From: a bacterium | Lineage (GTDB): Bacteria > UBP6 > UBA1177 | Direction of reading: 5' to 3' | DNA length: 60,905 nt | NCBI GenBank assembly: GCA_017645765.1 | Contig: JAGCNV010000067.1 | Location: 1 to 60,905 of the forward strand | Part shown: positions 53,455-55,637 of the stretch, piece after piece | How the letters are laid out: the number at the start of each line of letters is the position of its first letter | How positions within the stretch are numbered: position 1 is the first letter of the stretch | Translations under genes and position numbers: made by a program | Notes under the pieces: model-generated | Told to the model about the DNA's origin: nothing | What the model saw: only the letters and a program-made list of their open reading frames with translations | Databases searched by the model: none

Positions 53455-53476
53455 GAGATGTTTCAGGAAACATCTC
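53455..53476 (+). repeat. REP palindrome (orientation A), compensated variant
   Basis: GAGATGTTTC-AG-GAAACATCTC followed by TACAAAA. The C to T change in one arm is matched by G to A in the other. It overlaps the last codons and the stop of the RAYT gene. Confidence 0.8.
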
Positions 53477-53708
53477 TACAAAAACAATCTTCTTCCCATT
53501 TTTTCACATTGTTTTTGATATACTCAGAAACAAGATCTAATTCTTTCTGATTTCTGATTATATGGTCATGAAAACCGGATTGCCATGCAAATTCAATATT
53601 ATTTTGCTTTGCAAAGCGCGTTACCGACTGTTTGAATTGACGTATCACGACAGACAACCACGATTGTTTGTTTGTGGCACATTCCATTCCCTTTGTTGTT
53701 GTAGTCAA
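53463..53708 (-). pseudogene. REP-associated tyrosine transposase (RAYT), C-terminal part, split by IS110
   Basis: Second half of a Y1-type transposase (IS200-like, TnpA-REP). SWLSVVIRQFKQSVTRFA and WQSGFHDHIIRNQKELD are diagnostic; the catalytic Tyr is expected in SEYIKNNVKKW. RAYTs process and spread REP palindromes. The first half is at 55110-55505, and the IS110 element lies between. If the element were absent the two would join in frame. The last codons overlap a REP. Confidence 0.85.
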
Positions 53709-54877
53709 CTATAGTTAAAAGAAAAAGTCCTTTTATTTTTCAGCATAGAAAAGAGACATCTTAAAAATTTATTAAAAACCGCAATTACAGCCTTTTTTCC
53801 ATTCATGTTCTCTCGTATTTTTTTGTCGTAATAGTCCTTAAAGAGCTTGTTCATACTGATTAAATGCAATGCTGTCAGGAAACCGATTCTCCGCACGGAA
53901 GCATTGCCTCTTTTTGAGATTTTTTTCTGAACCAGAGAGTTGCCTGACTGACTTATTCCAGGATCTGTTCCGGCATAAGCGGTCAGTTGTTTCACTGTTT
54001 CGAAGCGGTTGATATCGCCGATTTCCGCGAGTAACTGCGCTGCGGTAAGTTTACCGATCCCGGGAATACTTGTGAGGATTTCAAAGTCCTCATGTGAATA
54101 AACGCTGACTGCTTCAATGAGTTCATTGTCACATTTCTTCAATTCATCCGTAAGGAAGTTAAGTTCCCTTATTATATGCAGAACCGTTTTCTCGAGCATT
54201 GGCTTGCAAACACCGACAGATTTTGTTGCAAGTTCCTTGATTTGCCCTGCATTTAACCCGACATTCCGTCCTTTTGTTTTTGAATTAAGGACTTTTTCAA
54301 TCTTTCTAAGGCTTGCCTTACGTATTGCTTCGGCAGAGGGAAACTCTTCAAGCAGGCTAATCATTGAAACGGTAAAAATATTGTGTTCATTTACCAGTTC
54401 AGGAAATGTCGTTGTCACCAGTTGTTTCAGCCTGATTTTGGCTGCAACACTCTTCTTGGAAATGCTTTCCCTGAGTCGTGCGATTTCTCTCAGACCGTTA
54501 CTGTCCGAAGCAGCTACGGGGTGAAGTCCGGCATGATTTTTCCCGAGAAAAACAGATATTATTCTGGCATCTATCGTATCAGTCTTGGTATTCCTGAGCG
54601 AACATGAACGGGCAAAATTCTTGACCAGAAACGGCGTGATCAGATAAGTCGGAACATCTCTTGCCAAAAGAGCAAAAAGCAGCGGCTGATGGTATGTTGC
54701 AGTGGATTCAAGACCGACGGCGACATTCTCAAACTTGCTGATAATACTGAAGAAAATCTCAAAACCTTCGTGACACATGTCACACGAGCCCTTTTCCAAA
54801 GTTTTGTCTTTTAAATTCGTGACATTGAACGAAAAGGAATCCTTCGAGACATCGACACCGACAAAATGTTCAAACAT
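53705..54877 (-). CDS. IS110-family DEDD/serine recombinase
   Basis: A 390-residue transposase, started at ATG 54877 (GAGGT before it; the track-length TTG start is less likely). The RuvC-like DEDD residues are D9 (GVDVSK), E57 (GLESTA), D100 and D103 (TDTIDARI). The C-terminal Tnp_IS110 part has the helix-hairpin-helix LTSIPGIGKLTAAQLLAEIG and the catalytic Ser region RGNASVRRIG. The family uses a structured bridge RNA to bring target and donor together, and the element carries a candidate in its leader. Confidence 0.93.
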   Translation of the reverse strand: MFEHFVGVDVSKDSFSFNVTNLKDKTLEKGSCDMCHEGFEIFFSIISKFENVAVGLESTATYHQPLLFALLARDVPTYLITPFLVKNFARSCSLRNTKTDTIDARIISVFLGKNHAGLHPVAASDSNGLREIARLRESISKKSVAAKIRLKQLVTTTFPELVNEHNIFTVSMISLLEEFPSAEAIRKASLRKIEKVLNSKTKGRNVGLNAGQIKELATKSVGVCKPMLEKTVLHIIRELNFLTDELKKCDNELIEAVSVYSHEDFEILTSIPGIGKLTAAQLLAEIGDINRFETVKQLTAYAGTDPGISQSGNSLVQKKISKRGNASVRRIGFLTALHLISMNKLFKDYYDKKIRENMNGKKAVIAVFNKFLRCLFSMLKNKRTFSFNYS

Positions 54878-54936
54878 TTCTTTACCTCGCAAGACAAAGT
54901 ACTAAAATAAACCCGCTTCGAGGCAGACATGTCTCC

Positions 54937-55066
54937 CGTCCCAATCTCCATAATAACAGGAGTTTAGCTCAATCAACTAATTGGGGCTCAGGAGACAGAG
55001 AGCAGACTACGCGAGAGGTTCAAAGACCTGGAGACGTGCAGGCTCTTCTGTCTCGGAGCATTTCTC
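54937..55066 (-). ncRNA. Candidate bridge RNA of the IS110 element
   Basis: In transcript order (minus strand), a target-binding hairpin comes first: stem GAGACAGAAGAGC (55042-55054) with GCTCTCTGTCTC (54992-55003), an apical AGGT/ACCT hairpin, a left loop holding ACGTCTC (55031-55037) and a right loop holding GTAG (55007-55010). A donor-binding hairpin follows: stem CCCAAT/ATTGGG (54980-54985 and 54940-54945), left TAGTTGA (54973-54979) and right GGAG (54946-54949). These match the REP foot and the element's own ends. RNA ends are estimated. Confidence 0.7.
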
Positions 55067-55109
55067 GTGAAAAATAATAAGGAACTGCTTGCAAACAAAG
55101 AAATGTTAC

Positions 55110-55505
55110 TCATTTATTGGTAGGAGAGACGTTTCCTGAAACGTCTCCTGTTCCTGAAACGTCTCCTGTTAGTGAAATGTTTTCTAAAACAGGAATATCC
55201 CGTTTTTTATGCGGCAGTCTGCCGACGTCAATCGACACGATAAGATGAACGTGGTTCGGCATTACCGTCCATAAAGGTATTTCTGCATATAAATAGTGTT
55301 CATGAATCCTCTCCATTCTTTGTCTTACATATTTTCCAGTTTCAGATAGAATCATTTCGTTATTTTCGATTGTTCCGAAAAAATATTCTCTATTTTTGGT
55401 GCAAATGGTCACAAAATAAAATCCGTCATCATAGTCATGCCATTTCGCCCGTGCCGAATCTATGCGGTATTTGTTCATAAATTTATCGCAATCTATTGTA
55501 AACAT
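55110..55505 (-). pseudogene. REP-associated tyrosine transposase (RAYT), N-terminal part, split by IS110
   Basis: First half of the Y1 transposase: KYRIDSARAKWHDY, GFYFVTICTKNREY and the HUH-type metal motif MPNHVHLIV. The start at ATG 55505 has GGAG nine bases before it; ATG 55478 is an alternative. The frame runs into the IS110 element and stops at 55110. A repeat of 18 bases (TGDVSG twice) before the break is built from REP sequence, giving a variable low-complexity stretch seen in many RAYTs. Confidence 0.85.
55126..55147 (-). repeat. REP palindrome inside the RAYT coding region
   Basis: GAGACGTTTC-AG-GAAACGTCTC on the minus strand, read in frame in the RAYT gene. Two overlapping 18-base partial copies precede it (55148-55170). 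The IS110 element is inserted at its edge. Confidence 0.8.
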
Positions 55506-55637
55506 TGCACATTTCTCCGTAAGCACAAAATACAATTTTCTTCATTTTTGCCGACCAAAACTTAAAGTTGTTTTTACAGATAATTTTTATAAAGTCAATA
55601 GAAATCTGATTTTGAAAAATTTATTTGTGAATTTGTA

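Follow-up and report, generated by a model that had tools for sequence, protein, structure and literature searches.

We suggest that an IS110-group element inserts at the foot of REP palindromes by bridge-RNA-guided recombination, a reading that we consider very probable. The element lies in the window, the whole stretch of 60,905 nucleotides analysed here (contig JAGCNV010000067.1 of assembly GCA_017645765.1). An earlier note, made from the letters of the window, had proposed that the element is guided to the REP foot. The junctions of sister copies, the conserved structure of the leader and the empty site of a related genome (G007) agree with this proposal. The reading of guides and targets is held with high confidence, and the activity of the element is predicted.

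The element, its copies and its joined ends

The insertion sequence is 1,420 bp long without the CT cores and is read on the minus strand (Table 1). The earlier note placed it at 53703-55124. Its assignment to IS110 stands, but position 53703 includes the right core and the CT-less element begins at 53705. The recombinase matches DEDD_Tnp_IS110 (8e-26) and Transposase_20 (2.5e-26), both well above the Pfam cut-offs, as well as the NCBIfam model of IS110 RNA-guided transposases (2.9e-62) and NF033542 (210.8 bits, cut-off 140). It aligns with the solved structures of IS621 (8wt6) and ISCro4, and the DEDD acidic residues and the C-terminal SGxS serine are present. The open reading frame is intact, with IS621-like active-site residues. 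An ATG at about 54877, behind AGGTAAAG, is a likelier start than the TTG. The TGA stop codon is the final three bases of the element and leaves 0 nt past it at the right end, so the 232-nt left end makes up almost all of the non-coding sequence. In the IS110 group non-coding sequence is mostly found in the left end (PMC11208160). Both domains, the DEDD residues with the catalytic serine, and the long left and very short right non-coding ends place the element in this group.

Table 1. Features of the element, its leader and the interrupted gene (positions in the window)
Feature	Position	Strand	Basis
Complete IS110-group element	53705..55124	-	Full G009 copy, 91% identical and sharing both ends; partial ones in G004, G010, G012 and G000:C65
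IS110 recombinase gene, 395 aa from TTG	53705..54892	-	Pfam, NCBIfam, structure alignment
Non-coding left end (leader), 232 nt	54893..55124	-	93-96% conserved in sister copies
CT core, left junction, after ACGTCT of a REP	55125..55126	-	Junction sequence
CT core, right junction, then ACAACA	53703..53704	-	Junction sequence
REP palindrome GAGACGTTTCAGGAAACGTCTC, foot = target	55126..55147	-	37 such palindromes in the genome, <=3 mismatches
Target-binding hairpin, GAGACAG..CUGUCUC stem, internal loop, inner AGGU/ACCU stem	54992..55054	-	Compensatory changes in 3 outer + 2 inner pairs
Left target guide ACGUCUC	55031..55037	-	Left target ACGTCT + core C, 7/7 left junctions
Right target guide GUAG	55007..55010	-	Complement of CTAC, 11/11 right junctions
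Donor-binding hairpin, CCCAAU..AUUGGG stem, inner GAG/CUC stem	54940..54985	-	Compensatory changes in 1 outer + 2 inner pairs
Left donor guide UAGUUGA	54973..54979	-	Matches the final 7 element bases exactly
Right donor guide GGAG	54946..54949	-	Complement of CTCC, core + first element bases
N-terminal half of the interrupted RAYT gene	55110..55535	-	NF047646 positions 7-68, 3.7e-7, below curated cut-off
C-terminal half of the interrupted RAYT gene	53463..53708	-	NF047646 positions 69-130, 6.2e-7, below curated cut-off; 92% to G007 gene

Apart from the complete copy in the window, the host genome (G000) has a single 3′ fragment, on contig C65. The fragment (L003, 7134-7884) has 88% DNA identity and keeps the exact right junction CTAC. 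Sister copies were sought in 15 genomes of the genus: G009 has the full copy, and G004, G010 and G012 have many that are truncated at contig ends. A scan of the genome contigs for relatives gave one close element (L039, on the same contig as that of G009) and three remote ones, and on these three the RNA covariance model found nothing. An isolated 69-bp relic in G004 (L056, C15:16559-16627) consists of the leader end and the gene start. The nearest full copy of the element is in a genome from a reindeer sample.

When the right end, CT and the left end are joined, TTGACT is formed by the right end with the core, and a -10 box from the left end follows 16-17 bp off in 4/4 elements. The boxes are TAACAT (window, 16 bp), AATATT (G009), TATAAA (G168) and TATAAT (G044, 6/6 at 17 bp), and this is the best promoter site of each joined junction. 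The joined ends would form a sigma70-like promoter, from which we infer transcription of the leader; IS621 uses a circle-junction promoter (PMC11208160). The -10 box of the window is weak and the host has a single complete copy beside the fragment, as could be the case if the bridge RNA system were real and the window copy now inactive. This is unlikely, as the copy keeps its reading frame, active-site residues, two guides and two ends all intact, and the sister genomes hold several copies.

Target sites and the predicted bridge RNA

All independent left junctions in sister genomes end with ACGTCT-CT (ACGTCTCT, 7/7) and all right junctions start with CT-AC (11/11), just as the target loop (ACGTCTC with GTAG) predicts; this was the check that the earlier note had set for related copies. 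Beyond these bases the insertion flanks are unrelated among copies. Hence, the target is ACGTCT-CT-AC. Contig ends truncate most sister copies, which leaves their left and right junctions unpaired. The seventh base on the left side is not constant across the sites. In the host genome ACGTCTCTAC occurs 49 times, versus 5 times for the reversed control. On the opposite strand the REP foot starts with GTAG, which is the sequence tag that marks REPs of the GTAG class (PMC3733652). At 53455-53476 of the window a REP variant, GAGATGTTTCAGGAAACATCTC, adjoins a standard REP, with both arms changed together.

As expected of a bridge RNA, the leader has two conserved hairpins with internal loops, the first of which pairs with the target and the core (the left second core base is mismatched) and the second with the joined element ends, TAGTTGA-CT-CC, through UAGUUGA and GGAG. 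The loop sequences that the earlier note had read, ACGTCTC with GTAG and TAGTTGA with GGAG, are present at the positions given in Table 1. Against the core T the left guide carries C instead of U in all leaders of the genus that extend over this position, the second of the core, so the left-guide match comprises six target bases and the core C. In 200,000 dinucleotide shuffles of the leader, a test designed post hoc, the target pattern came up 176 times and the donor pattern 767 times, but never the two in order, which agrees with the earlier claim that such matches are unlikely by chance. Decisive for the guides are the independent 7/7 left and 11/11 right sister junctions, rather than these shuffles.

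The proposed structure rests on comparative evidence and not on single-sequence MFE folding, in which neither the 235-nt leader (z = -0.91) nor the 141-nt core (z = -2.54) stands out strongly. In the leader alignment with the homologue of G168, whose protein is 39% identical to the window recombinase, 8 of the 25 proposed pairs are changed on both sides, and 92.8% of cells are paired versus 29-46.4% in slid controls. The covariation score was reached by 0/500 shuffles; the set is five related sequences, and the count is taken as support, not as a probability. Essentially these two hairpins are also proposed by RNAalifold, unaided. The leader of G044 is recovered (E=4.4e-13), directly upstream of its IS110 gene, by a covariance model from which G044 had been left out, and no Rfam family matches the leader at gathering score or with E up to 5. 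The two-hairpin leader of the earlier note is thus conserved, with compensatory changes in relatives of about 39% identity and recovery of the distant G044 homologue.

Clear palindromes are found at 6/7 left sites and a degenerate one at the seventh, which might mean that the REP palindrome or its hairpin is read by the recombinase protein and that the loop matches are incidental. We regard this as very improbable. Several REP families are targeted through the common foot, with arms TTTCAGGAAA, TGTCAGGTCA, TTTCATGAAA and CCATNNTATG besides the degenerate site, and the sites have in common only the 10 bases that the guides spell; homologues with other guides occupy other, non-REP sites.

The loops of G044 read AUAUUUCCU and AGAGGAG and its junctions are ATGTATC-CT and CT-CCTCT, with a match of 7/9 on the left and of the first 7 of 9 positions on the right. 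The guides of G044 are different, and so, correspondingly, is its insertion site. G168 and G044 retain the donor guides, apart from a single change in the left one. In G168 there are six related IS110 copies (L065-L070), whose right targets CTCCTTT/CTCCTCT match the right guide over 7-8 consecutive positions in 5/6 copies and over 6 positions plus one G:U wobble in L069. In L070 the right guide has G for A and the target correspondingly C for T. The left guide of G168 gives no convincing pairing with its left targets in six registers; G168 therefore supports only the right guide, the donor and the fold. In G009 the left guide has G opposite a target A. Tolerance of rG:dT wobbles of this kind is reported for IS621 (PMC11208160), and by analogy we read the G009 pair as a tolerated one.

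The split gene and the REPs of RAYT genes

Joining the flanks with one CT gives the empty site ACGTCT-CT-ACAACAACAAAGG and restores a 218-aa ORF, a RAYT. The 92%-identical uninterrupted homologue in G007 reads ACGTCT-CT-ACAACAAAGG (ACGTCTCTACAACAAAGG at that point). Both bear out the pre-insertion site ACGTCT-CT-ACAACA that the earlier note had rebuilt, G007 as far as ACAAC. The insertion target here is a REP inside the gene of a RAYT (REP-associated tyrosine transposase), which the insertion splits; the NCBI model of RAYTs (NF047646) hits each half on its own (Table 1). RAYTs are thought to spread REPs. This location would suit an element that reached the REPs along with RAYT-driven REP movement, or through homologous recombination between them. 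The prospect is negligible: in every copy the junctions fall on the CT core to the exact base, the flanks are unrelated, and the empty site lacks the element, the extra two bases being explained by the core alone.

A REP that includes the entire ACGTCTCTAC foot occupies a mid-gene, in-frame position in nine RAYT genes of the genus (L080-L086, L088, L089). It falls between the halves of the RAYT domain, and two different frames are used among these genes. The arms of the internal palindrome are those of the REPs flanking that gene, and in G003 and G006, with two RAYTs each, every RAYT carries a REP type of its own. The nine cases are not independent, the genes being related. REPs within genes are already known (PMC3733652); our literature search for a mid-gene in-frame REP matching the flanking REPs of a RAYT found no prior report. 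In another genus of the family, a RAYT (L125, G017:C130) has internal palindromes of different sequence at 1739-1758 and 1794-1817, which encode GAIHELP/RAIHESP-like peptides. Tentatively, and with more doubt than confidence, we suggest that RAYTs of the genus, and of at least one other genus of the family, may keep the flank-matching REP as a functional part of the RAYT-REP system, and that an IS110 element reading the REP foot may destroy RAYTs and freeze REP populations. An intact RAYT is present in 0/5 carriers of the element (G000, G004, G009, G010, G012) versus 7/10 other genomes (p=0.019); given incomplete genomes, related lineages and a post hoc test, we do not claim this association.

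Proposed mechanism and relation to known systems

Step 1: The element would excise as a circle, and the leader would be transcribed from the promoter at the joined ends.

Step 2: The recombinase would bind the bridge RNA derived from the leader. Pairing is predicted between the first loop and the REP sequence ACGTCT-CT-AC, and between the second loop and TAGTTGA-CT-CC, the junction of the element's joined ends.

Step 3: Strand exchange would then proceed at the CT core by the DEDD/serine active site.

IS621 of Escherichia coli shares with the window element, in addition to the circle-junction promoter, the DEDD/serine recombinase, the left-end bridge RNA with the target loop followed by the donor loop, the CT core, the identical 4-nt GUAG right target guide pairing with CTAC, and insertion in REPs (PMC11208160, PMC11208158). 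The natural target of IS621 is ATCAGGC-CT-AC, in REPs (PMC11208160). However, the window protein is only remotely similar (1.4e-22, phmmer), its left guide is ACGUCU instead of AUCGGGC with shorter left pairing (6 bases and C), and the REP families and the donor ends TAGTTGA-CT-CC are different.

The ISCro4 recombinase (PDB 9t56), compared by protein alone, belongs to the same family by sequence (9.2e-21). ISPpu9, ISPpu10 and ISPa11 of Pseudomonas are likewise IS110 elements in REPs at one fixed position, but in other REPs, and were described from insertion sites only, before bridge RNAs (PMC1525189). For seekRNA elements of the IS1111/IS110 type a non-coding RNA is also proposed to select the site; unlike the window element, with its RNA in the left end, IS1111 has the RNA in the right end and long subterminal repeats (PMC11187229).

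The layout, the CT core, the GUAG guide and the REP target are as in IS621, hence the mechanism is already known and the window element is a further example. New here, and well supported by the compared sequences, are its own guides and its own REP families within an IS621-type mechanism. REP targeting by bridge RNA would thereby extend to an uncultured lineage and to a recombinase only remotely similar to that of IS621, with a natural guide, donor and target set available for engineering and a clear case of one mobile system breaking another. That two remote IS110 elements read the REP-defining GTAG tag suggests repeated exploitation of a high-copy, often extragenic target.
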